Shown in pieces: positions 2,143 through 64,000 of a stretch of 64,000 nucleotides of DNA. Below the pieces are notes generated by a model that did no database searches, was not told where the DNA came from, and saw only the letters and a program-made list of their open reading frames with translations. Source of the stretch: Terriglobia bacterium (GTDB lineage Bacteria > Acidobacteriota > Terriglobia > Bryobacterales > Bryobacteraceae); NCBI GenBank assembly GCA_021325235.1, contig JAJPHN010000032.1:62001-126000 (forward strand). The letters run 5' to 3'. The first letter of the stretch is position 1, and the number at the start of each line of letters is the position of its first letter. The translations under genes were made by a program, and so were the position numbers.

Positions 2143-4029
<1,887 letters not shown>

Positions 4030-4088
4030 ACTATCCAAGTATTCGCGCATAATTCGAAAAACGGTCCGGCAACCGGGCCCGTTCTCTA

Positions 4089-4727
4089 GTGGCAACCGAC
4101 TTACTACAAATCGATCCGGCTCAACCAGATCAGGCCGCGGTGGATCGCGCGGCATATGAAATCCGTCGAGGCCGGGTAATCGGCGTACCTACCGACGCAC
4201 TCTATGTGCTCGTGGCAGATCCGTTTAACCTGCAGGCGGTGGGCAAGGTCTTTGCAAGTAAGGCGCGCGAGGCGGTCCGCTCGCTTCCCCTGGCTGTTTC
4301 CGATGTGCTGATGGCCGAAGATCTCGCGAAGGAACTAAACAGCCGTTTCTATATCCTGGCCCGGCACTTCTGGCCCGGTCCCCTCACCATGATCGTGCCC
4401 GCTGCTGCGAAAGTGCCGCTAAAGGTGACCGGCAACACCGGACGCCTTGCCATGCGCCAGGCAAAATCGCCGATTCTCGACGCTCTGATGGAGAAGATGG
4501 GGCAGCCCCTGATTGCCACCAGCGCCAACCTGTCCGGAAAACCCACCATCTCGAGCGGTATCGATCTGTTTGCCGAGATGGACGGCAGCGTGAGCCTGGT
4601 GCTCGACGGAGGGCTTTGCACCGGCCCGGGCTCGACAACCATCGACATCACCGAACCCTACTGGCGGGTTATCAAAGAAGGCGCCATTTCAGAACGCGAA
4701 ATCGCGGAGCGACTGCAGGCTAACTGA
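4089..4727 (+). CDS. L-threonylcarbamoyladenylate synthase (TsaC/Sua5/YciO family)
   Basis: A 212-residue YrdC-fold protein. It is predicted to make threonylcarbamoyl-AMP from threonine, bicarbonate and ATP for the t6A modification of ANN-decoding tRNAs. Evidence is GVPTDALYVLVADP near residue 32, SKAREAVRSLPLAV, the HFWPGPLTMIVPA segment, the nucleotide-site MRQAKSP, ATSANLSGKP near residue 140 and STTIDITEPYWRVIKEG. Like YciO proteins it is short and lacks the C-terminal Sua5 domain, so true TsaC activity is probable but not proven. The start is a GTG at 4089; the first residues before AAYEIRRGRVIGVPTDAL fit the family. Confidence 0.88.
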   Translation: MATDLLQIDPAQPDQAAVDRAAYEIRRGRVIGVPTDALYVLVADPFNLQAVGKVFASKAREAVRSLPLAVSDVLMAEDLAKELNSRFYILARHFWPGPLTMIVPAAAKVPLKVTGNTGRLAMRQAKSPILDALMEKMGQPLIATSANLSGKPTISSGIDLFAEMDGSVSLVLDGGLCTGPGSTTIDITEPYWRVIKEGAISEREIAERLQAN

Positions 4728-4771
4728 CCGACGCGGCTCGCTGCACGCACCCGCTTCGGTCGCTACCATGC

Positions 4772-4788
4772 TGGCGGCAAAGCCGCCA
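4772..4788. other. Short perfect hairpin in the intergenic gap after the TsaC-like gene
   Basis: TGGCGGC, a three-base AAA loop, then GCCGCCA: a perfect 7-bp stem in the 154-bp gap between 4728 and 4881. No run of T follows it, so it is not a classical intrinsic terminator. It may be a transcript-end stabiliser or chance. Confidence 0.3.
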
Positions 4789-4881
4789 ACTGCATCTGCA
4801 CCGAGTCCTGTTCGCAGAAAGATAAGCTCACGTGCGAAGGTCGCGGGAACTTTTCACCTACTTAGATGCTTCTAAAGCTAC

Positions 4882-6930
4882 ATGAAGCTAGGGGCATTGT
4901 TTCTATCGATTGTGATGGTGGCGTGGTGCGCGGTCGATGTGCCGGTGCGGCGCGTGGTGCTGTACAAGCACGGAGTAGCTTACTTTGAGCGGAGCGGATC
5001 GATACCGGCCGGCGAAGAAGCGCGGCTCGATTTCAAGACCGCAGAGATGAACGACGTGCTGAAGTCGTTCACGGTTTCCGATGCGACGGGCAACCGGCTG
5101 AGCGGTGTTCGGTACGACGCCAATGAGCCGATCGATCAGCAGCTGGCGAAGTTTCCGTTTCGAATTGGGGAGAGCCAGTCAGTAACGGTGTTCCTCGACA
5201 ACATTAAAGGCGCAGAACTGGAGCTGAAGCGCGGGGATCAGAGAATTACCGGAACGATCATGGGGGCGCGCGTGGTGCAGGCGCAGAGTCCGACGGAGCA
5301 ATTGACAATGCTGCTTGCTTCGGGGGAGATCGAGAATTTCGATCTCGGCAGCGTGGCCTCGTTCCGGCTGACGGATGCGGCGCTCGAGGATCAGCTGAAG
5401 CGGTATCTGGCGGCAATGGCGCGCTCGAAATCGGCGGACAAGCGGAGTTTGTATCTGGATTTTGCGAGCAGGGGCGCCAAGGATCTGAGCGTGTCGTATG
5501 TGGCGCCGTCGGCGATCTGGAAATCGTCGTACCGGCTGGCGTTGAAGGGCGATGCCTCGCAGCTCGAGGGCTGGGCCATCGTGGATAACACGACCGATGA
5601 GGACTGGGTGAATGTGAATCTGAGCGTAGTGTCGGGGCGCCCGATTTCGTTCATCAGCTTGCTCGATACCCCGCATTTCGGGAACCGGCAGGTGGCGGAA
5701 TTGCCCGAAGATCGCGCGGCGGGGCCGGTAGTGTACGGGGGCGCGATCGATACTCGGCAGTACGTTGCGAATCAGCTGGTTACGCCGGGGCAGGGTACGG
5801 GGTATCCATCGGGTGTGGCGGGCGGAATGCTGGGCGGCGTTCCGGGTGCATCACCACAAGCACCGCCGCCGCCTCCGGCACAGGCGCCAGTAGGGTCGGT
5901 GGCGCAGAGCGTGGAGGTGCAGGCGTCATCCAATGGCTTTCTGGGCAGCACGGTGGAAGGCGCGACGGGTGAGACGATCGGCGAGCTCTTTGAATACGAT
6001 TTTGCGACGCCGGTGACGATTCGCAAGAACGAGTCGGCGATGCTGCCCTTTCTCCAGACGCGTGTAGCTGCACGCAAATTGCTGATCTATAACAATACGT
6101 CCAGCGAGCATCCGGTGAACGCGGTGGAACTGGCGAATGAGACAGGCAAGACGCTGGATGGCGGTCCGGTGACCGTCTATGACGAGGGCGCGTATGCGGG
6201 CGAGGCGCTGTTTGAGACGGTGAAGACCGGCGATAAACGGCTGCTGGGCTACGCGGTGGATTACGGCACGCGCATTTCGACGACGTTTGACAGCGGAGAG
6301 GAGCAACTGCAGCGCGTGCACGTGCGGGACGGCAATCTGGAGCTGGAATATGCGACGCGGCAGACGGCGGCTTACACGATTCGCAATGTGGATGCGAAAG
6401 CAAAGACGCTGCTGATTGAGGAAACGGTGCAGGAGAACCAGAAGCTGCTCGCGCCGAAGCCGAGCGAGCGCACGGCGAAAGCCTACCGCTTTGAGATCCG
6501 GCTCGGAGCGCACGAGACGCGGGAGCTGAAGGTGGAGCACGAGCTGGCCACCGAGAACGTGACGGTGATCGCGAACGCCACGCCGGATTTCCTGCTTGAG
6601 GTGACGAATGCCGAGATTGGAGAGAGTGCGCGGCGGCAACTGCGGCAGATTGCGGAGCTGAAGCAGCGGATTGTGGATGCGCAGTCGGAGGTGACGGCGC
6701 TCAGAAGCCGGCAGGGAGAGCTCAGCACGGATCAGACGCGTTTGCGAATGAATATCGACAGTCTGAACCGGGTGAAGGGCGAAGAGCAGCAGGTGCGGGA
6801 TTACTCGTCACAGCTGGCGGCGAACGAGGCGGAGTTGCGGAAGCTCACGGGCCAAATCTCGGACGCTGAGAATCGGAAAGCGGCCTTGGAAAAAACGCTG
6901 AGGGATTCGATTGGGAAGCTGCGATTTTAA
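4882..6930 (+). CDS. Exported DUF4139-type protein with C-terminal coiled coil
   Basis: A 682-residue protein with a short Sec signal (MKLGALFLSIVMVAWCAV). The N-terminal region (VRRVVLYKHGVAYFERSG) and the central segments on both sides of a proline-rich linker resemble secreted DUF4139-family proteins related to the MuiA family, whose biochemical role is unknown to me. Residues about 305-335 are a Gly/Pro/Ala-rich low-complexity linker rich in PPPPPA. Residues about 580-675 are a predicted coiled coil (heptad-rich, many E, Q, R, L), ending at ...DSIGKLRF. It stands alone, with 154 bp before it and 75 bp after it. A surface or periplasmic structural role is only a guess. Confidence 0.75.
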   Translation: MKLGALFLSIVMVAWCAVDVPVRRVVLYKHGVAYFERSGSIPAGEEARLDFKTAEMNDVLKSFTVSDATGNRLSGVRYDANEPIDQQLAKFPFRIGESQSVTVFLDNIKGAELELKRGDQRITGTIMGARVVQAQSPTEQLTMLLASGEIENFDLGSVASFRLTDAALEDQLKRYLAAMARSKSADKRSLYLDFASRGAKDLSVSYVAPSAIWKSSYRLALKGDASQLEGWAIVDNTTDEDWVNVNLSVVSGRPISFISLLDTPHFGNRQVAELPEDRAAGPVVYGGAIDTRQYVANQLVTPGQGTGYPSGVAGGMLGGVPGASPQAPPPPPAQAPVGSVAQSVEVQASSNGFLGSTVEGATGETIGELFEYDFATPVTIRKNESAMLPFLQTRVAARKLLIYNNTSSEHPVNAVELANETGKTLDGGPVTVYDEGAYAGEALFETVKTGDKRLLGYAVDYGTRISTTFDSGEEQLQRVHVRDGNLELEYATRQTAAYTIRNVDAKAKTLLIEETVQENQKLLAPKPSERTAKAYRFEIRLGAHETRELKVEHELATENVTVIANATPDFLLEVTNAEIGESARRQLRQIAELKQRIVDAQSEVTALRSRQGELSTDQTRLRMNIDSLNRVKGEEQQVRDYSSQLAANEAELRKLTGQISDAENRKAALEKTLRDSIGKLRF

Positions 6931-7005
6931 GCTCGCTCAGGCTTCCGCGTCCGTTTCAAGGCTCGTGCGAAACGTTTTGGTTTGGCAAACGGTCCCTGTT
7001 GATGG

Positions 7006-8271
7006 ATGCCGCAGGATGAAGCCGAACAGCAGCCGGGCGTGGCGCGGCGGCGGCTGCTGACGGGTACGGCGAGCTATCTTGCAACTGCCATGTTGAACCC
7101 AGCGCACGCTCAGGAACTACCGAGCGCCGAGAAGGCCCCGCGCAATCAGAGCAGGACGGACCCCGGACCGGAGAACCGCGAGCTGCAGGCGGCGAGCCCG
7201 AATGCTTTCCTACCGCCGGAGACAGATCACGGCGAAGTGCAGACGTTCTGGAACTCGTTTTCTTCGGCGCACCGGCGGATACAGGAGGGCGGCTGGTCGC
7301 GGCAGGTAACGGTCGAGGATTTCCCCATCTCGAAGGACATCGCGGGTGTGAACATGCGGCTCACGGCGGGCGGCATTCGCGAACTGCACTGGCATAATGC
7401 GGCGGAATGGGCGCTGATGCTCACGGGCCGCGCGCGCATTACGGCGATCGATGACGAGGGGCGGAGTTTTGTGAAGGATGTCGGGGTAAACGACCTGTGG
7501 TTCTTTCCGACGGGCACGCCGCATTCGATTCAGGGACTCGCGCCCGATGGCTGCGAATTTCTACTTGTGTTCGATGACGGGAAATTTTCGGAAGGCAACA
7601 CGACGCTGATCTCGGACTGGGCACGGCATACGCCGCGCGAAGTACTGGCGAAGAATTTTGGGGTGCCCGAGAGCGAGATTGCGCCGGTGTACACGGTGCC
7701 GCCGGAGGGTCATTATATTTTTCAGCAAGCAGTGCCGCCGGCGCTCGAAGAAGATCAGCGCGCGGCGGCGGGATCGAAGCCGCTTTCTCCGGTAGCGTTC
7801 GATTTTGCGATGCACGCGATGGAGCCGACGTATAAGACGAAGTCGGGCGAAGTGCGGGTGATCGATTCGCGCAATTTCCCGGTTTCGACGACGATTGCGG
7901 CGGCGCATGTGGTGGTGAAGCCGGGCGGCCTGCGCGAGCTGCACTGGCACCAGAACGCGGATGAGTGGCAGTATTACGTGCAGGGTCGCGGCCGGATGAC
8001 GGTCTTCTTCAACGGCGGCAAAGCGCGCACGCAGGATTTCAATGCGGGCGATGTGGGGTATGTGCCGCGCACATTCGGGCATTACATCGAGAACACCGGC
8101 AACACGGACCTGATCTTTCTCGAGATGTTCAAGGCGCCGCGGTTTGAAGATCTGTCGCTCTCGGACTGGATTTCGCACACGCCGCCGGAGCTGGTGATGC
8201 AGCATCTGAAAATCAGCCGCGAGACGCTGGCGCGTATACCGAAGCGGAAATTGCCGGTTGTGCCGGCGTAG
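7006..8271 (+). CDS. oxdC: Bicupin oxalate decarboxylase family protein with Tat-like signal
   Basis: A 421-residue two-cupin protein. Both metal sites look intact: HWH...E with later H in cupin 1 (ELHWHNAAEW, GTPHSIQG, about residues 127-170) and again in cupin 2 (ELHWHQNADEW, FGHYIENTG, about residues 312-355). The family uses Mn to split oxalate into formate and CO2. The active-site lid reads FSEGNTT where Bacillus OxdC, from memory, reads FSENSTF, so the glutamate thought to favour decarboxylation is kept but the loop is altered. The N-terminus has ARRRLLTG followed by a hydrophobic stretch ending near AHAQ, which suggests Tat export of the folded metalloprotein. The next gene follows after 21 bp. 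Confidence 0.88.
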   Translation: MPQDEAEQQPGVARRRLLTGTASYLATAMLNPAHAQELPSAEKAPRNQSRTDPGPENRELQAASPNAFLPPETDHGEVQTFWNSFSSAHRRIQEGGWSRQVTVEDFPISKDIAGVNMRLTAGGIRELHWHNAAEWALMLTGRARITAIDDEGRSFVKDVGVNDLWFFPTGTPHSIQGLAPDGCEFLLVFDDGKFSEGNTTLISDWARHTPREVLAKNFGVPESEIAPVYTVPPEGHYIFQQAVPPALEEDQRAAAGSKPLSPVAFDFAMHAMEPTYKTKSGEVRVIDSRNFPVSTTIAAAHVVVKPGGLRELHWHQNADEWQYYVQGRGRMTVFFNGGKARTQDFNAGDVGYVPRTFGHYIENTGNTDLIFLEMFKAPRFEDLSLSDWISHTPPELVMQHLKISRETLARIPKRKLPVVPA

Positions 8272-55637: not shown

Positions 55638-56501
55638 TCAGACGGCGAGCTTTCGGAGTTGTTCGTCGCTCAGTCGAATATCGGCGGCGGCGATGTTCTC
55701 TTTGAGATGCGCCACTTTCGATGTTCCGGGAATGAGCAGAATGTTGGGCGAGCGCTGAAGGAGCCAGGCCAGGGCGACCTGGTGAGGCGATGCCCCGAGT
55801 TCAGCAGCGACCTCGTCGAGAGCGGCCGATTGAAGCGGGGTAAATCCGCCGAGCGGGAAATACGGAACGAAAGCGATGCCTTTCGAAGCGCAGAGCTCCA
55901 CCAGCGGATCATCGTGCCGGTTCAGTACGCCATAGCTGTTCTGCACGCAGGCGACCGAGCCGAGCCTGAGCGCTTCTTCGAGATGCGCGGCGACGATGTG
56001 GCTGAGTCCGACGTGGCGAATTTTTCCGGCTGACTGTAATTCGAGCATAGTTTCGAACTGCTGAGCGATCGGCGAATAGGAAGGCACGTGCTCGCGCGAA
56101 AAGACGCGCAGGTTGACGATCGGAAGAACGTCGAGATCGAGGCGCTTGCGGTTGTCGTCGACGGCCTGGCGCAGTTCTTCGGGGCTGAGCGCGGGATGCC
56201 AGCCTGCGTCGGGAGTGCGCCGCGCGCCGACTTTGGTGACAATGACCAGATCGCCACGGTAGGGTTTGAGTGTTTCGCGAATCAGGTCGTTGACGACGTA
56301 TGGACCATAGAAATCGCTGGTATCGATGTGGTTGATGCCGGCTTCCATGGCGGTTTCGAGCACGCGGCGTGCTTCGGCGACATCGGCAGGCGGACCGTAG
56401 ATCTGCGGGCCAGTGAGCCGCATGCCGCCGAAACCCATCCGCTTTACGTTGAATTCTCCCGCGAGCGGATAGGTTCCACCCAGCGTGGTTGTGTCGGTCA
56501 T
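55638..56501 (-). CDS. Aldo/keto reductase
   Basis: A 287-residue enzyme. It has the (beta/alpha)8 signatures MGFGGMRLTGPQ, NHIDTSDFYGPYVVNDLI (Asp, Tyr), GDLVIVTKVGA (Lys), IRHVGLSHIVAAHLEEAL, YGVLNRHDDPLVELC and VALAWLLQRSPNILLIPGTS (NADP site). It reduces an aldehyde or ketone with NADPH; the substrate is unknown. ATG 56501 follows a good AAGGAA ribosome site. Its end is 8 bp from the convergent GH67 gene. It is divergent from a TetR regulator, with 59 bp between starts, so that regulator probably controls it. Confidence 0.93.
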   Translation of the reverse strand: MTDTTTLGGTYPLAGEFNVKRMGFGGMRLTGPQIYGPPADVAEARRVLETAMEAGINHIDTSDFYGPYVVNDLIRETLKPYRGDLVIVTKVGARRTPDAGWHPALSPEELRQAVDDNRKRLDLDVLPIVNLRVFSREHVPSYSPIAQQFETMLELQSAGKIRHVGLSHIVAAHLEEALRLGSVACVQNSYGVLNRHDDPLVELCASKGIAFVPYFPLGGFTPLQSAALDEVAAELGASPHQVALAWLLQRSPNILLIPGTSKVAHLKENIAAADIRLSDEQLRKLAV

Positions 56502-56529
56502 GAGCAACAATTCCTTTCGCTTTCACTAT

Positions 56530-56545
56530 CTGAAGAAAGCTTCAG
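56530..56545. promoter_or_regulatory. Candidate TetR operator between the divergent AKR and TetR genes
   Basis: CTGAAG-AAAG-CTTCAG is a perfect 6-bp inverted repeat with a 4-base spacer, centred in the 59 bp between the two start codons. A -10-like TACAAT follows at 56549-56554, only six bases before the TetR ATG, which would make that transcript nearly leaderless. No good -35 is visible. The operator role is inferred from position. Confidence 0.5.
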
Positions 56546-56560
56546 GTTTACAATTCGCAT

Positions 56561-57196
56561 ATGGCGAGCTCTTTGAAAACTGCGCCGAGGCCGCGGAAAA
56601 TGCCGGTTCAGGAGCGGTCGATCGATACCGTGCAGTCGATTCACGAAGCGACTATTCAGGTTTTGCTGCAGGTTGGATCGGAAAAACTGACCACAGTGCG
56701 AGTGGCGGAGCGCGCAGGTGTGTCCGTTGGCACGATGTATCAGTATTACCCGAACAAACAGGCGTTGCTCTATACGGTTCTCGAAGAGCATCTGACGGCG
56801 CTGATGGAAGAAGTCGAGCGTGCTTGCCGGGGGAGCGCGGGCGCGGAGGTGGCGGCGATGGTAGAGAATGTCGTCTCGGCGTTCATTCAGGCGAAGCTCA
56901 GGGTACGGCAGAAATCGCTGGTGCTGTATGAGGTATCGCCGCAGTTCCGGCAGGACGGATTGATGAAGCGCATCGCGAAGCGCGGGCGGCAGGCGATTGC
57001 GGCTATGCTTCGCAGCACGAAGGCAATTCCACCGGAGGAGGTCGAGTTCGCGTCGCTGATGTTTTATTCGACGCTGACCGGGACAGTCGCCACGGTGCTG
57101 GCCAAAGGCGCGCCAGCGAGCATGCTGGAGGCGGCGCGGCGGCATTTGATCGTGATGCTGACGGCGTATCTGACGGCGCTTTCGACCGAAAGCTAA
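56561..57196 (+). CDS. TetR/AcrR family regulator
   Basis: A 211-residue regulator. The N-terminal segment has the helix-turn-helix KLTTVRVAERAGVSVGTMYQ and YYPNKQALLYTVLEEHL, with the recognition helix near residues 57-65. The C-terminal domain (ERACRGSAGAEVAAMVENVV onwards) would bind a small ligand. It is divergent from the aldo-keto reductase gene and probably represses it. A 10-bp gap separates it from the aminotransferase gene, which may be co-transcribed. Confidence 0.93.
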   Translation: MASSLKTAPRPRKMPVQERSIDTVQSIHEATIQVLLQVGSEKLTTVRVAERAGVSVGTMYQYYPNKQALLYTVLEEHLTALMEEVERACRGSAGAEVAAMVENVVSAFIQAKLRVRQKSLVLYEVSPQFRQDGLMKRIAKRGRQAIAAMLRSTKAIPPEEVEFASLMFYSTLTGTVATVLAKGAPASMLEAARRHLIVMLTAYLTALSTES

Positions 57197-57205
57197 AATC
57201 ACGAC

Positions 57206-58381
57206 ATGGCCGTTGCCAGCGCCCGGCGTACCGGGAGCAATCGCATCGCGAATTTCAAAGAATCGGTGATCCGGGAGATGACGCGCCTTGCCCTGGCGCA
57301 CGGGGCGGTGAACCTGGCGCAGGGTTTTCCGGACTTCGCCGCCCCGGCCGAGATTAAAGGCGCCGCGCAGGAGGCGATTGCCGAGGATGTAAACCAATAC
57401 GCAATTACCTGGGGATCGAAGCCGTTCCGACGGGCGATTGCCGATTATTACCGGCGGTTCTACGCTCTAGAGATCGATCCGGAAACCGAGATCACGGTAT
57501 GCTGCGGCGCGACGGAGGGGATGGTCGCCTCGATGCTGGCGCTGCTCAATCCGGGCGACGAGGTGGTGGTTTTCGAGCCGTTTTATGAAAATTACTGGCC
57601 GGATTCGCTGCTGAGCGGGGCGGTTTGCCGGTACGTTCCGCTGCATGCGCCCGAGTGGACCTTCGATCCGCAAGAGCTGCGGAGCGCATTTAATGCAAAG
57701 ACGCGGGCCGTGATTGTGAATTCGCCCAATAATCCAACGGGCCGGGTTTTTTCACGGGACGAGCTCAATGCGATTGCAGAGCTGTGCCGCGAGCATGACT
57801 GCTTCCTGCTCACGGATGAAATTTACGAGCACATCATATTCGACGGCGAGCGCCATATTCCGGCGATGACACTGCCGGGTATGCGAGAGCGCTCGGTGCT
57901 GGTGAACAGTCTGAGCAAGACGTTTTCGGTGACCGGCTGGCGTGTGGGGTGGGTGATTGCGGCGCCGGAGCTGACGGCCTCGATTCGTAAAGTGCACGAT
58001 TTTCTGACGGTGGGCGCGGCGGCCCCGCTGCAGCAGGCGGGCGTAACGGCTCTGGCTCTGCCGGACCGCTATTTCGCAGAGCTGGCACAGACCTACGAGA
58101 CGAAGCGCAATCTGCTGGTCGGGATTCTGCAGAAGGCGGGCTTCCGGTGCTTCCTGCCGAAGGGCGCGTATTACATTTTGTGCGACATCGCGGCGTTCCC
58201 GTTCCGCGACGATGTGGCGTTTTGCAGGCATCTTTTAGAGGTGGCGGGAGTGGCGGCCGTGCCCGGATCAAGCTTTTTCTCGCGGGCGGAAGACGGGGCG
58301 CGGCTGATCCGGTTCTGCTTTGCCAAGAAGCTCGAAACGTTGGAAGCCGCAGCGGAACGTCTCGACCGGCTCACGGGCTGA
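57206..58381 (+). CDS. PLP-dependent aminotransferase (class I/II)
   Basis: A 391-residue fold-type I enzyme. It has LAQGFPDFAAP at the N-terminus, CCGATEGMVASMLAL, VFEPFYENYWPDSLLSGAV, IVNSPNNPTGRVFS (Asn of the PLP site), LLTDEIYEHIIF (Asp), and LVNSLSKTFSVTGWRVGW with the PLP lysine and its following arginine. This is the pattern of kynurenine/methionine-type aminotransferases that accept broad amino donors; the substrate is not fixed. It follows the TetR gene by 10 bp. Confidence 0.94.
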   Translation: MAVASARRTGSNRIANFKESVIREMTRLALAHGAVNLAQGFPDFAAPAEIKGAAQEAIAEDVNQYAITWGSKPFRRAIADYYRRFYALEIDPETEITVCCGATEGMVASMLALLNPGDEVVVFEPFYENYWPDSLLSGAVCRYVPLHAPEWTFDPQELRSAFNAKTRAVIVNSPNNPTGRVFSRDELNAIAELCREHDCFLLTDEIYEHIIFDGERHIPAMTLPGMRERSVLVNSLSKTFSVTGWRVGWVIAAPELTASIRKVHDFLTVGAAAPLQQAGVTALALPDRYFAELAQTYETKRNLLVGILQKAGFRCFLPKGAYYILCDIAAFPFRDDVAFCRHLLEVAGVAAVPGSSFFSRAEDGARLIRFCFAKKLETLEAAAERLDRLTG

Positions 58382-58460
58382 ACGTTCTCTTACCATTTCG
58401 GCAACCCGCTTCAGAGAATTCTCGTCTTTCCTTCGTACTTTAACTGGGTTACTATTTGCC

Positions 58461-61400
58461 ATGGTGAGAGACGCAGGCTCATTCTTTGCCGGGGCGGCGG
58501 CGTTGTTGGCGCTGGCCTGGGGCGCGCAGGCTCAGGTCCGGCAGGCGCGTATCGTTGCACCGATTGACGAAACGCAGTTACAGCGGATTCCGCACAGCAC
58601 CCATCCGCTGGCACGGACGGAGTTTGATAACGGCGCGGCACCGGCGAGCTTGCCATACGACCGTATGCTGCTGGTTTTGAAGCCCGATCCGGCGAAGCAG
58701 TCGGAATTGAGCGCGCTCACGGCGGCACAGTTGGATCCCAAGTCGACGCAATATCACAAATGGCTGACGCCGCAGGAATTCGGGCAGCGATTCGGGGCGG
58801 CGGACGCGGACATCGCGAAGATCACCGGCTGGCTGGCAGGACACGGCTTCAAGGTCACGCGCATTGCGAATGCGAAGAATGTGATCGAGTTTTCCGGCAC
58901 GGCTGGACAGGTATCGCAGGCGTTTCACACAGAGATTCATCAGTATGTGGTGAACGGAAAGCAGCACTGGGCGAACGCCAGTGATCCGCAGATTCCGGCT
59001 GCGCTGACACCGGTTGTGGCGGGCGTGGCGACGCTGCACAATTTCCGGAAGGCGTCGCAGATTTCCTCGATCCGGCCGCAGGCGGTACGGCGGCAAGCGG
59101 GTGTGAAACCCAACGCAACGCTGTCGGACGGGTCGCACGCGCTGGCCCCGATCGATTTCGAAACCATTTACAACATACCTTTCATCAGTAGCGTGGATGG
59201 GACGGGCACCACGATCGCGGTCGTGGCGCGCAGCAACATTCATATTTCTGACATTCAGTCGTTCCAAAGCTCATTCGGTGTGCCAAACAAGCTGCCGCAG
59301 ATTGTGGTGAATGGTACGGATCCGGGCGATAAGCAGGATGGGGATGAAGCGGAAGCGGTGCTCGATACCAGCTGGTCGGCGGCGCTGGCGCCAAATGCGA
59401 CCGTGAAGCTGGTGGTATCAGCATCGACCAACTCGAGCGACGGCGTCGATCTGTCGGAGCAGTACATTGTGGACAACAATCTGGCCGATGTGATGACGGA
59501 AAGCTACGGCGATTGTGAAGCGAACTATTCGCCGGCCGAAGCGCAGTTTTATTTGTCGCTGGCGCAGCAGGCGGCGACGCAGGGTATCACGTATACGGTG
59601 GCGGCGGGCGACTCGGGTGCAGAGGGGTGCGACGATCCCAGCTCGGAGACGGTGGCCACTGGTCCGGTTTCGGTGAACATACTGGCCTCGACCCCGTACG
59701 ACATTGCAGTGGGAGGAACGGAATTCAACGAGAACGGGAATAACGCCTACTGGAACAGCTCGAATGGAACGAACTTCGGTTCGGCGACCGGCTACATTCC
59801 GGAAGTAGCGTGGAATGAGAGCTGCACCGCGGCGCAATGCGGATCATCGAATGCCGGAATCTGGGCGGGTTCCGGTGGCGCCAGCATATTGTTTCCGAAG
59901 CCCTCGTGGCAGACGAATGTGCTGGGCATTCCGAACGACGGTGCGCGCGACGTGCCGGATATTTCGTTCACTTCGGCCGGTCATGATTTTTATCTGTTGT
60001 GCCTGGATGGATCGTGCACTTCGCAGCACGGGCAGAGTTACTTTTCGGGCGTGAGCGGGACGTCGGCGGCTACGCCTTCGTTTGCAGGCATCATGGCGCT
60101 GCTCGTGCAGTACTCGGGAGGCAGGCAAGGACAGGCCGCGGCTAAGCTTTACGACTACGCGAGTTATGAGAATTTTCCCTCGTGCATCGCAGTGACGCCG
60201 GCGGCAGGCTGCGTCTTTAACGATATCGTTCTCGGTAACAATGCCGTACCCGGCGAGGTGAATTACGGCACCATCGCTGCCCAATATCAGGCCGGGGTGG
60301 GATACGATCTCGCCACCGGACTCGGCTCGATCAACGTTGCCAACCTGATGGACGTTTGGGCCGGAACGGCGCACACCCAGCCGGGTTTCGCGATCGGAAT
60401 TGATGTCCCGAGCGTGCAAAACTCGTCGGTGATAGGAACACTCGACTTCCGCGGATGGGCGCTTTCGACGAGTGGCACAATCACTTCCGTTACCACGGCG
60501 ATTGATTCCGTGCCCTATTCACCCGCGGCATTCAACATGGGCGCGCCGTCGTATGTTTGTTCGCTGTATCCGGTAGCGAACTGCAACAACTCAGGATGGG
60601 TCGTGCTGGTCGATACGACGCTGCTCTCCAGCGGCCCACATCAGTTCGACGTAACCGCCACCGCAAGCACGGGTGAAACGTATACGCAGAGCTCGACCTT
60701 TGTCGTGGGGAACTGGGCAGGCAGCAATCCGATGAAAGTGAATATCGACATTCCTGGGCCGAATAGCCAGGCTTTCAGCGGCGTAGCGAGTTTCGCGGGC
60801 TGGGCGATCAGCAGCATCGCTGCCATCAATCAGGTATCCGTCGCGGTAGACGGAGTTTCGTATGGGGCGGGCGTTTATGGTGGGAATCGACCCGACGTCT
60901 GCAACGTTTTTCCGGGCGAAGCAGGGTGTCCGAACGTCGGTTGGAACTTTTCGCTGGATACGACGAAGCTGAGCGACGGCACGCACACCGTGAGCGTGAC
61001 GGCCGAGAGCGCTGGCGGGCAATATACAACCACAGCCACAAGCTTCGTGGTTGCGAATACGCCTTCGAACACGATCATTGTCGCAATTGACTCACCGGCC
61101 GCCAATGGAGGCTCCTTGAGCGGCGGCGTCGGCCTGGGCGGATGGACGCTCGGCAGCACGGTTCCGATCAGCAACGTTGCGGTTTCGATTGACGGAATCC
61201 CGTACGGCAATGCGAATTACGGGGGGAATCGCGCGGATGCGTGTCAGTCGCACGTGGGCGCGCCGGGTTGCCCGAACGTCGGCTGGAACTATTTCCTCGA
61301 TACAACGCAATTGGTGAATGGCTCGCACCTTCTTGCGATTACGGCTTCGACTGCGGCGGGGCAATCCACCGCCGCGACCCGAATGTTTTCGGTGCTTAAT

Positions 61401-62366
61401 GCTCCCGATGTATTTCCGATATCGTTATCTCCATTCCCAGGTCCGAGCGCTTCGGTCGTGATCGGAGCCGTTAATTTCCAGTGCCTGACACACGACGCAA
61501 ATCAAAGCATCGTGAGTGACGTTCTGACGATCGATGGAGGTTCGCCGCCAATCAGAGCTCTCGGCTGGGTGGACACGACTCAGCTCGCGAACGGCTCTCA
61601 TACCATGACTTGTGTGGCGACGGCAGCGGATGGGCGCAAAGGTTCGATTACAAGCCCGTTTACGGTTGCGAACTGGTCCGGTACGAATCCCATGATGCTC
61701 TCGATCGACACGCCCAACGGAAAAGACACGCTGAGCGGAGTGACAGGTATCGGCGGGTGGGTGATCGACCAACTGGCCGGGATTCAAACCGTGGCGATTG
61801 CGATTGACGGCGTTTCGTTCGGTTACGCCAATTACGGCGGGGTGCGAACGGACGTCTGCGCTACGCATCCGAACGCGATTGGATGCCCGAATGTCGGCTG
61901 GAATTTCCTGCTGGATACGACGCTTTTGAGCGACGGAACCCATACGCTGAGCGTTACCGGCACCACAACGGCCGGGCAAAGCTCGACCTTTTTCCAGATC
62001 TTCAACGTCGCGAATCACTCTTCAAACGGCATACAGATGAGTATTGACACGCCGAGTCCGAACCAGGCGCTGACGGGTACGGCGCACGTGGGCGGCTGGG
62101 CAGTGGATCCGAGCGGTGCGCAGATTGTGAGCGCGACGGTGCTCGTCGATGGCGTGGTCAATGGCGTGGCGATCTATGGGGGAACGCGAACCGATGTGTG
62201 CGCCGTGATTCCGTCGGGCGGCGGGTGTCCGAACGTCGGCTGGAATTATCAGCTCGATACAACGCCATTTGCGAACGGACCGCATATGATCGAAGTGCGG
62301 GCGCTATCGGCGAGCGGAGAGAAATACACGGCCTCCCAGACGTTCGTTGTGGCGAATCAACCATAA
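58461..62366 (+). CDS. Exported S53 (kumamolisin-type) serine protease with C-terminal repeats
   Basis: A 1301-residue secreted enzyme. The ATG at 58461 gives the signal peptide MVRDAGSFFAGAAALLALAW; the open frame upstream lacks one. Residues about 35-195 are the pro-activation domain (PYDRMLLVLKPDPAKQ, YHKWLTPQEFGQRFGAADAD). The protease domain has E298 and D302 (EAEAVLDTSW), D384 (AAGDSGAEGC) and S535 (SGTSAATPSFAG), the Glu-Asp-Asp-Ser set of sedolisins, which act in acid. Residues about 640-1300 are six repeat units (separate entry). It probably digests peptides outside the cell. It is 79 bp after the aminotransferase gene. Confidence 0.93.
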   Translation: MVRDAGSFFAGAAALLALAWGAQAQVRQARIVAPIDETQLQRIPHSTHPLARTEFDNGAAPASLPYDRMLLVLKPDPAKQSELSALTAAQLDPKSTQYHKWLTPQEFGQRFGAADADIAKITGWLAGHGFKVTRIANAKNVIEFSGTAGQVSQAFHTEIHQYVVNGKQHWANASDPQIPAALTPVVAGVATLHNFRKASQISSIRPQAVRRQAGVKPNATLSDGSHALAPIDFETIYNIPFISSVDGTGTTIAVVARSNIHISDIQSFQSSFGVPNKLPQIVVNGTDPGDKQDGDEAEAVLDTSWSAALAPNATVKLVVSASTNSSDGVDLSEQYIVDNNLADVMTESYGDCEANYSPAEAQFYLSLAQQAATQGITYTVAAGDSGAEGCDDPSSETVATGPVSVNILASTPYDIAVGGTEFNENGNNAYWNSSNGTNFGSATGYIPEVAWNESCTAAQCGSSNAGIWAGSGGASILFPKPSWQTNVLGIPNDGARDVPDISFTSAGHDFYLLCLDGSCTSQHGQSYFSGVSGTSAATPSFAGIMALLVQYSGGRQGQAAAKLYDYASYENFPSCIAVTPAAGCVFNDIVLGNNAVPGEVNYGTIAAQYQAGVGYDLATGLGSINVANLMDVWAGTAHTQPGFAIGIDVPSVQNSSVIGTLDFRGWALSTSGTITSVTTAIDSVPYSPAAFNMGAPSYVCSLYPVANCNNSGWVVLVDTTLLSSGPHQFDVTATASTGETYTQSSTFVVGNWAGSNPMKVNIDIPGPNSQAFSGVASFAGWAISSIAAINQVSVAVDGVSYGAGVYGGNRPDVCNVFPGEAGCPNVGWNFSLDTTKLSDGTHTVSVTAESAGGQYTTTATSFVVANTPSNTIIVAIDSPAANGGSLSGGVGLGGWTLGSTVPISNVAVSIDGIPYGNANYGGNRADACQSHVGAPGCPNVGWNYFLDTTQLVNGSHLLAITASTAAGQSTAATRMFSVLNAPDVFPISLSPFPGPSASVVIGAVNFQCLTHDANQSIVSDVLTIDGGSPPIRALGWVDTTQLANGSHTMTCVATAADGRKGSITSPFTVANWSGTNPMMLSIDTPNGKDTLSGVTGIGGWVIDQLAGIQTVAIAIDGVSFGYANYGGVRTDVCATHPNAIGCPNVGWNFLLDTTLLSDGTHTLSVTGTTTAGQSSTFFQIFNVANHSSNGIQMSIDTPSPNQALTGTAHVGGWAVDPSGAQIVSATVLVDGVVNGVAIYGGTRTDVCAVIPSGGGCPNVGWNYQLDTTPFANGPHMIEVRALSASGEKYTASQTFVVANQP
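60387..62363 (+). repeat. Six tandem repeat units in the C-terminal half of the S53 protease
   Basis: Units start at about 60387, 60732, 61071, 61413, 61692 and 62028, each about 93-115 residues. The best four (2, 3, 5 and 6) share GGW or AGW near the start, a V.VDGV.YG strand, YGG.R.D.C, then GCPNVGWN, LDTT.L..G.H and VTA. Two cysteines 10-12 residues apart recur in each of these and may form a disulfide. Unit 1 is divergent, and unit 4 lacks the Cys-rich part. GCCCGAACGTCGGCTGGAA-like DNA recurs, so the copies are recent or kept by recombination. Confidence 0.85.
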
Positions 62367-62389
62367 GGCGCTGCTGCCGCGGAAGCGTA

Positions 62390-63136
62390 TCAGCTGCGAT
62401 TGATCAGACTCGCGACGTATCCGGCGCCGAAGCCGTTGTCGATGTTTACGACGGTGACATTGCTGGCGCAGCTGTTGAGCATACCGAGCAGGGCGGCGAT
62501 ACCACCGAAACTGGCGCCGTAGCCGACGCTGGTGGGAACAGCGATTACAGGACAACCGACGAGGCCACCTACGACGCTCGGCAGCGCGCCTTCCATACCG
62601 GCACAGACGATGACCACGCGCGCATGCATGAGCCGCTCGCGTTGATCGAGCAGGCGGTGGATGCCGGCCACGCCGACGTCGCAGATTGCGTCGACCTGAT
62701 TGCCCATGACTTCGGCAGTGAGCTGAGCCTCTTCGAGGACGGGTATGTCGCTGGTGCCCGCGCAGACGACCGCGATCTTGCCCTTGCCGACGATGGTGCG
62801 ATCGCGCCAGACGCGAATCACGCCCGAAGCGGGGTAATGCTCGCTCTCGCCTGCGAGGGAGGCGATGCCCTCGGCCATCTCGGGAGTGGAGCGCGTGATC
62901 AGCAGATTGCTGGATTTTTTCAGCAGCGCGGAGGCAATGCCGACGACCTGCTCGGTTGTTTTGCCCTTGCCGAGAATAACCTCGGGCATACCGTGGCGGA
63001 CGGCGCGATGGTGATCGACTTTGGCGAAACCGAGATCGGCAAAGGGAAGATCGCGCAGCTCTTCGACAGCGGTTTCGACCGGTGTGCTGCCGTTGCGCAC
63101 GCTCTCGAGTAACTGCTGCAGTTGTTGAGTGTTCAT
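62390..63136 (-). CDS. larB: LarB, pyridinium-3,5-biscarboxylic acid mononucleotide synthase
   Basis: A 248-residue protein with a C-terminal AIR-carboxylase (PurE-like) fold. It has [94 protein letters not shown] and [18 protein letters not shown], all in LarB order. In lactate-racemase maturation LarB makes the pyridinium dicarboxylate from nicotinic acid adenine dinucleotide, later turned into the nickel pincer cofactor by LarE and LarC. Neither larC, larE nor larA is in this window. It is convergent with the S53 gene and divergent from the prenyltransferase gene. Confidence 0.92.
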
Positions 63137-63192
63137 AATTCGGTATCGAGGGACGCCGGGTGTATCCCGTAAAATGATAATGCGACAGGCGA

Positions 63193-64000
63193 ATGCGCCC
63201 CTTTTGGAAACGACTGTGTTTGACGCTCGAAATGATCAAATTCGAGCACTCGATTTTTGCGCTTCCTTTTGCGCTCACGGGCGCGCTGCTTGCCTGGTAC
63301 GACAGCGGATTTCAGATCGAGGGGCTTTGGCGGCGTTTCGGATGGATCGTGGTAGCGATGGTTGCCGCGCGTTCGGCGGCCATGACGTTCAACCGCCTGC
63401 TGGACGCACGCATCGATGCGCGTAACCGGCGAACGGCGATGCGGCATTTACCGGCTGGACTGCTTTCGGTGCGATTCGCCTGGGGTTTCACGGCGATCGC
63501 CTGCCTGATCTTTGTCGCGGCGGCGGGAGAGCTTGGCGGCCTGTGCTTCGCGCTCTCGCCACTTGCGCTAGCGATTTTGTTTTTGTATTCGTTCTGCAAA
63601 CGCTTCACGTCGCTGTCGCATTTAGTGCTGGGCTTCTGTCTCGGCATTGCGCCGGCTGCGGCCTGGATTGCGATGCGCGGATCGCTGGACGTTCGCATTT
63701 TGTGGTTGACGGCAGCGGTCATGTTCTGGACGGCGGGGTTCGATGTGATTTACGCCTGCCAGGATTTCGAATTTGATTGCGCCGAAGGCCTGTTCAGTAT
63801 TCCACGGCGCGTGGGTATCGCCAATGCGCTGGGCATCGCGCGTCTGCTGCATCTGGCGATGGTTGGGTGTTTGATTGCGCTCGTGGTGACGTTCCATCTG
63901 GGGGCGTTGAGCATGGCCGGAGTTGCGGCTGTCCTGCTTTTGCTCGTTTATGAGCACGGGTTGGTGAAGCCGAACGACTTGTCGCGCGTGAACGCGGCCT
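63193..64000 (+). CDS. UbiA-family prenyltransferase, possibly MqnP of the futalosine pathway (partial, cut by window edge)
   Basis: About 269 residues are present and the gene continues off the window. The start ATG at 63193 gives [20 protein letters not shown] and then membrane helices. The first Asp-rich motif is [20 protein letters not shown] (near residues 70-90). The second is [20 protein letters not shown] (near residue 182). The Asn-Arg form NRLLDxRID, in place of NDxxDxxxD, is what I associate with the futalosine-pathway menaquinone prenyltransferase MqnP; a 4-hydroxybenzoate prenyltransferase is the alternative. Without the rest of the locus, pathway placement is inference. Confidence 0.87.

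Follow-up and report, generated by a model that had tools for sequence, protein, structure and literature searches.

Six C-terminal immunoglobulin-like units of a Terriglobia S53 peptidase form a period-three super-repeat found in shifted register on a second protein family of the genus

Why does a bacterial peptidase end in six copies of one domain, and do their positions within the row matter? The question is raised by a 64,000-nucleotide stretch of a Terriglobia bacterium genome (assembly GCA_021325235.1, contig JAJPHN010000032.1, positions 62,001 to 126,000; hereafter the window), in which a forward-strand open reading frame of 1301 amino acids (58461..62366) encodes an S53 (sedolisin/kumamolisin) peptidase followed by six immunoglobulin (Ig)-like units. 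An earlier note, made from the DNA alone, had described an acid protease with six recently expanded repeat units of no recognised family. We found that the six units constitute a super-repeat, ABC-ABC, which is supported by several tests and is modest in size (some 2-3 points of identity). As a domain the unit is ordinary, being a variant of a known fold; the novel part is the phased six-unit super-repeat, which S53 peptidases and proteins with NHL repeats carry in shifted register.

The six units, each of ~113 amino acids, lie in tandem at the C-terminus of the protease, all on the forward strand: unit 1 (60378..60722; class A, with a C-x7-C pair and a Trp-containing tail, GNWAG), unit 2 (60723..61064; class B, C-x8-C), unit 3 (61065..61406; class C by position but class B by profiles trained on the NHL arrays, C-x8-C), unit 4 (61407..61682; class A, without the loop but with another Cys pair, Trp-containing tail ANWSG), unit 5 (61683..62021; class B, C-x8-C) and unit 6 (62022..62363; class C, C-x8-C), with which the protein ends. 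The number six given in the earlier note was borne out both by our unit calls and in six homologous proteases (L010-L014, L046), whose units each scored 93-163 bits, far above chance, with a profile built from five window units. So were the strings YGG.R.D.C, GCPNVGWN and LDTT, common to units 2, 3, 5 and 6, which share 43-52% pairwise amino acid identity. The Cys spacing of 10-12 residues reported there was an overestimate: the loop cysteines are 9 residues apart (C-x8-C; C-x7-C in unit 1). Unit 4 has neither the loop nor its Cys pair; it has its own cysteines at residues 1008 and 1051, 43 residues apart, which map to the equivalents of Ig strands B and F in a stretch of a six-unit model that was predicted with low confidence. 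Among 247 unit strings (including trimmed copies from overlapping loci, with a gap scored as no Cys), 176 had both loop cysteines, 65 had neither and 6 had only one. The two are thus gained and lost together, as expected of a disulfide, and the loop pair most likely forms one that pins the extra loop in five of the six units.

The order of the units carries the main signal. In centred similarity matrices, pairing units 1-4, 2-5 and 3-6 was the best of 15 pairings in the S53 family (seven arrays) and again in the NHL family (nine arrays). Moreover, the best of 1350 label matchings between the families placed the S53 pairs (14, 25, 36) on the NHL pairs (25, 36, 14), a shift of one; this held without the loop columns, without the loop-shortened arrays and with both exclusions. 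Class profiles trained on S53 arrays assigned 49 of 54 NHL units as expected (46 of 54 without the last four columns), those trained on NHL arrays did so for 35 of 42 S53 units (34 of 42 without these columns), with a third expected by chance in either direction, and those trained on both families for 5 of the 6 units of a DUF1800 protein; since the expected labels derive from the shift that had been found, the cleaner evidence is the rank among 1350. By the NHL-trained profiles the window array itself reads A-B-B-A-B-C, with unit 3 as the misfit. Over the 17 arrays used for the classes, the class information and the Trp counts (two six-unit arrays and the seven-unit array of genome G003 were set aside), total class information was 25.2 bits, above all 300 family-consistent shuffles (mean 19.9, standard deviation 1.0). 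The seven-unit array was best phased as B-C-A-B-C-A-B, its third unit being followed by NW and its sixth by NF, and the S53 and DUF1800 arrays were related by shift 0 at rank 1-5 of 1350.

A block transfer of one six-unit ancestor, with matching S53 and NHL positions, was considered and rejected: same-order matching had a median rank of 565 of 720 over 63 pairs, and S53 unit i was equally like NHL units i+1 and i+4 (45.9 and 46.1%; pairs with fewer than 80 shared columns, and with them window unit 4, were removed from all identity comparisons of this kind). S53 and NHL units from one genome were 2-3 points more alike than those from different genomes, for same-class and different-class pairs alike, which could be explained by gene conversion or shared composition.

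The classes are also marked at the junctions. Class A units (units 1 and 4 in the window) usually end in NW, so that a Trp marks every third junction: in the tail column, 28 of 34 class A rows held W, 3 held Y and 1 held F, and W occurred in none of 34 class B rows and in 1 of 34 class C rows. In the window, the Trp codons lie on the forward strand at 60714..60716 (junction of units 1 and 2) and, three junctions on, at 61674..61676 (junction of units 4 and 5). At column 25 class A units further prefer Ser to Gly, and at column 75 Ser/Thr to Asn; it is the second class A unit in which the loop was lost or shortened (unit 4 of the window S53 array, unit 5 of five NHL arrays). An AlphaFold2 model of the whole array, from 17 sequences, showed six Ig domains whose placement relative to one another was not confident (predicted template-modelling score, pTM, 0.34). 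A rigid array or closed ring as the reason for the number six gained no support from this pTM or from a Foldseek search, in which the query template-modelling score was at most 0.22 among the 50 rows listed.

Is the unit a new domain? Unit 5 was modelled with AlphaFold2 from an alignment of 78 units at a mean predicted local distance difference test (pLDDT) of 96.7 and pTM of 0.87, with strands at 4-10, 20-29, 34-41, 44-48, 50-53, 72-78, 85-95 and 100-109 and the first Cys on a short helix (56-61). Its best PDB matches were Ig-like modules of several kinds: the C-terminal module of a mannanase (6tn6; Z 13.5, root-mean-square deviation 2.1, 95 aligned residues), sulfite dehydrogenase (2ca4; Z 12.5, 2.4, 97), the FnIII-like module of CbhA (3pe9; Z 11.8, 1.7, 87) and the PKD domain of ColG (4jrw; Z 11.1, 1.9, 84), with C-terminal domains of sulfite oxidases and dehydrogenases matching at Z of about 12. 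At the level of profiles, Pfam Big_7 (PF17957) reached 49.2 bits on the whole protein, above its cut-off of 24.1, and 26.7 bits on unit 5 alone, where positions 4-70 of the 70 in the profile aligned with residues 7-91 of 113; units 2 and 6 alone scored 20.4 and 23.6 bits, below the cut-off, and units 1, 3 and 4 alone had no Big_7 match at E 1 or better. Across the 78 units, 51 were matched at E 0.001 or better. The unit thus resembles Big_7 in matching nearly the whole profile in unit 5 and in its modelled Ig-like beta-sandwich, but it differs in that ~113 residues stand against a 70-position profile, with a Cys loop inserted ahead of the LDTT strand and one more strand at the end, and in that only unit 5 of the window's six exceeds the cut-off singly. 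We therefore describe the unit, whose fold is established at the level of structure prediction, as a predicted Ig-like beta-sandwich related to Big_7 with an inserted Cys loop. The earlier note's proposal of a disulfide-stabilised Ig-like or other beta domain gains support from the unit 5 model, the PDB matches and the co-occurrence of the cysteines, the disulfide being probable. Its statement that no named family was recognised, which it had tied to the lack of a profile match over the whole unit, largely falls for unit 5, where Big_7 exceeds the cut-off over positions 4-70, and retains some force for the Cys loop and last strand, which lie outside Big_7, and for the five units below the cut-off.

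The number of units proved nearly constant within the genus, where units occurred in 14 of 17 genomes, the bacterium's own included. Six units were found in 18 of 20 complete multi-unit arrays: all seven S53 arrays, nine arrays on NHL/TIGR03437 proteins, one on a DUF1800 protein and one on an unclassified G003 protein, the exceptions being a seven-unit NHL/TIGR03437 array (G003) and a two-unit array; a second G003 array on an unclassified partner is cut by the contig end and lies outside the 20. Partners were assigned by profile for DUF1800 and, for NHL and TIGR03437, on a single member (L039), to which the eight other six-unit NHL members were 48-58% identical over about 950-1030 residues and the seven-unit member 46% identical over 134 residues. 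More widely, units occurred in at least 72 of 200 family genomes and at least 94 of 396 phylum genomes (own genome counted; the best 23 and the best 11 candidates per genome, respectively, were scored); scores within the genus were much higher. Among 17 named loci, 13 were from Acidobacteriaceae, Bryobacteraceae or Terriglobia metagenome-assembled genomes and 4 were proteobacterial or myxococcal. The fetched loci outside the genus carried arrays of 1 to 5 units on other partner proteins. A common ABC phase outside the genus was rejected, as 13 three-unit arrays (L032, L034, L084 and L086-L095) were mixed in order (ABC 4, ACB 5, BAC 3, BCA 1).

The protease that bears the array begins with a probable Sec signal peptide (58461..58535; MVRDAGSFFAGAAALLALAWGAQAQ, judged by eye), followed by a Pro-kumamolisin activation domain (58665..59045, residues 69-195; PF09286, 103.2 bits in Pfam, cut-off 23.5) and an S53 catalytic domain (59145..60347, residues 229-629), all on the forward strand; sedolisin aligned to residues 229-629 in a PDB sequence search (E 2e-21). 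In alignments with kumamolisin and sedolisin, the Glu/Asp pair, the oxyanion Asp and the Ser (in GTSA) of S53 were present as E298, D302, D384 and S535. Two C-terminal motifs, FNDIV starting at residue 586 and GYDLATG starting at residue 614, aligned to the Ca2+-binding motifs of kumamolisin. The propeptide, the catalytic Glu/Asp/Asp/Ser set and the Ca2+-site motif of the family are thus all kept, and the acid protease of the earlier note is supported, as an S53 member, by the PF09286 match, the PDB alignments and the catalytic residues; an NCBIfam scan of the whole protease returned no match. Activity at low pH and an enrichment in archaeal acidophiles have been described for S53 enzymes (PMC6411800), and an acid pH optimum may be presumed for the present protein from its family. 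It differs from the matched PDB chains (357-571 residues), which align over the propeptide and catalytic parts only, by 662 additional residues of Ig-like units. Eight pro-kumamolisin matches were found in the bacterium's own genome.

Five further S53 homologues in the genus (L015-L019) are 51-59% identical to the window protease and gave no match to the unit profile. Among the four whose tails were scanned (L015-L018), L015 and L017 carry FG-GAP repeats and L016 ricin-type lectin domains (Pfam), and L018 carries a choice-of-anchor D domain (NCBIfam), each located where the window protease has its units. One genus thus equips the same protease with alternative C-terminal modules, which makes the tail exchangeable and argues for a role in placement or binding rather than in catalysis.

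How, then, did the six units arise, and what are they for? The earlier note took the DNA identity between units as a sign of recent expansion, and a recent tandem expansion of a novel domain would indeed account for the long exact motifs common to units 2, 3, 5 and 6. The units are, however, 52-58% identical in DNA over aligned codons, and at fourfold sites units 2, 3, 5 and 6 agree in 70 of 181 comparisons (0.39), against 0.37 expected from codon usage, i.e. these sites are saturated. Moreover, five other genomes of the genus encode six homologous proteases, 52-64% identical over the best segment, with six units each. Within both families the units mostly match in order: same-order matching had a median rank of 3 of 720 orders over 21 S53 pairs (16 of them in the best 36) and of 2 of 720 over 36 NHL pairs (36 of 36 in the best 36). 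In a tree of 72 units, position labels were clustered (32 changes against a shuffled mean of 47.1; 0 of 200 shuffles as low); the tree, and a separate position comparison among homologues, covered 12 arrays, with duplicates (L040, L042-L045), a truncated locus (L002) and non-genus loci removed. Since fourfold sites are saturated and homologous arrays mostly match in order, recent expansion is ruled out, and with Big_7 already spanning most of unit 5 we give an expansion of a novel domain practically no credence.

Several observations weigh against a phased super-repeat. Same-order matching fell outside the best 36 of 720 in 5 of the 21 S53 pairs, and the label of unit 2 was unclustered in the 72-unit tree (278 of 500 shuffles as low). 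The shift of 2 implied between NHL and DUF1800 arrays was only at rank 31-133 of 1350, the DUF1800 array alone (a single array) put 14/25/36 at rank 3-7 of 15, and neither the pairing tests nor the class profiles found a clear phase in the two arrays that G003 carries on an unclassified partner. Aromatic residues are not exclusive to class A tails (class B has 1 F; class C has 4 Y besides its W, all in NHL arrays), and 10 class B and 8 class C rows are empty at the Trp column, partly since the protein ends there. In the six-unit model the first A-B junction (residues 113-115) had a pLDDT under 50 which, with the pTM of 0.34, means that the model gives no support to a rigid Trp interface. Finally, arrays within a family share descent, which leaves a few families, rather than dozens of units, as independent data, and between S53 and NHL units of different genomes the same-class identity was 45.8% against 43.4% for different classes (standard deviation about 6).

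The last figures bear on a simpler account, in which the tail is an ordinary, passively amplified one, and six units with period three are the relic of a three-unit block that was doubled once, long ago, and mean nothing for structure or function. Tails of tandem Ig-like domains are common, same-class units inside one protein are 47.0% identical, close to the value across families, as an old three-unit ancestor would leave them, and both the equal likeness of S53 unit i to NHL units i+1 and i+4 and the lack of a fixed arrangement in the six-unit model fit as well. We consider this account possible but distinctly less probable than the reading favoured below, because six units persist in four partner contexts (one seven-unit and one two-unit array excepted) despite ~45% unit identity and despite saturation of fourfold sites between window units, and because both large families retain the Trp that marks every third junction. 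It is somewhat more doubtful that the units are lectin-like or peptide-binding domains, each of which would bind substrate through its Cys loop instead of acting as a spacer. The ricin-type lectin domains at the same place in L016 would suit such a role, as would the loop R.DVC...P..GCPNVGW, which contains many of the unit's invariant columns; these residues could equally serve folding around the disulfide, however, loss or shortening of the loop is tolerated, as in unit 4 of the window array and in unit 5 of five NHL arrays, and no unit matched a carbohydrate-binding Pfam family at the thresholds used.

We therefore favour, with a probability of roughly 0.6, a secreted and self-processing S53 protease whose six-Ig ABC-ABC arm serves as an exchangeable stalk or binding arm. 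The protease would be exported and self-processed, and its C-terminal half would form an extracellular arm of six Ig-like domains, composed of two A-B-C blocks with a Trp at each A-B junction. In this reading the A-B-C block is an old reusable module of the genus: it begins one domain earlier in the NHL/TIGR03437 protein (C-A-B-C-A-B) and probably stands in the protease's phase in the DUF1800 protein. The arm would most likely hold the enzyme at the cell surface, the matrix or a polymeric substrate. A more speculative extension, to which we attach little weight, is that the six-unit arm is a docking or ruler module of standard length, whose Trp-marked A-B junctions would engage a common surface polymer or partner and so anchor a protease and unrelated secreted proteins of the genus at one fixed distance; if true, it would be a small bacterial counterpart of the super-repeats of titin.

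Titin super-repeats comprise 7 and 11 domains. In the titin A-band, domains at equal super-repeat positions are more alike than others, and aromatic or proline linkers recur periodically (PMC10665226). By that description the present arrays share with titin tandem Ig-type domains whose position-equal members are more alike (here best of 15 twice and best of 1350 between families) and periodic linker types including bulky aromatics (here the class A Trp). Unlike titin, a eukaryotic muscle scaffold of two domain types (Ig and FnIII), they are built from a single type of domain with a period of three, belong to bacterial proteins and have no known periodic ligand. Titin is the best analogy for how such an arm might be designed, and membership in the titin system is not claimed. 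Among bacterial proteins, LigA/B (PMC7821625), SiiE (PMC6272769) and the MpAFP extenders (PMC5380327) are likewise Ig-like arrays on extracellular proteins; here the partners are a protease and others not known as adhesins, and the unit number is small and fixed, with three position classes. Ig tails on secreted bacterial enzymes are usually regarded as interchangeable beads; here position classes, a count of six (18 of 20 arrays) and a Trp that recurs periodically are kept across partners at ~45% unit identity, which makes a case for asking whether bacterial Ig arrays have a higher-order design like that of titin. Within open-licence PMC, the string GCPNVG occurred in no paper, no paper on higher-order repeats of Ig-like domains in bacteria was found, and no listed title or abstract opening described this six-unit array.

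Further observations concern the other arrays and the surroundings of the gene. The bacterium's own genome holds a second six-unit array in L039 (G000 C41, open frame 2649-7670, 1674 residues; NHL and TIGR03437), which is one register off the window array and whose unit 5 is without the Cys loop. In L050 (G002 C11, 1253-4936, minus strand) the six units are N-terminal on the DUF1800 protein, so the array also occurs outside C-termini. Loci of related genera (L031, L032, L034, L084, L086-L095) have two or three units in no common ABC order, which follow a putative M36-type metalloprotease. None of the five neighbours scanned around the protease gene (55641-64000) is a secretion or surface protein; they encode an aldo/keto reductase, a TetR regulator, a class I/II aminotransferase, a UbiA prenyltransferase and an AIR-carboxylase-like protein, the last a candidate LarB.

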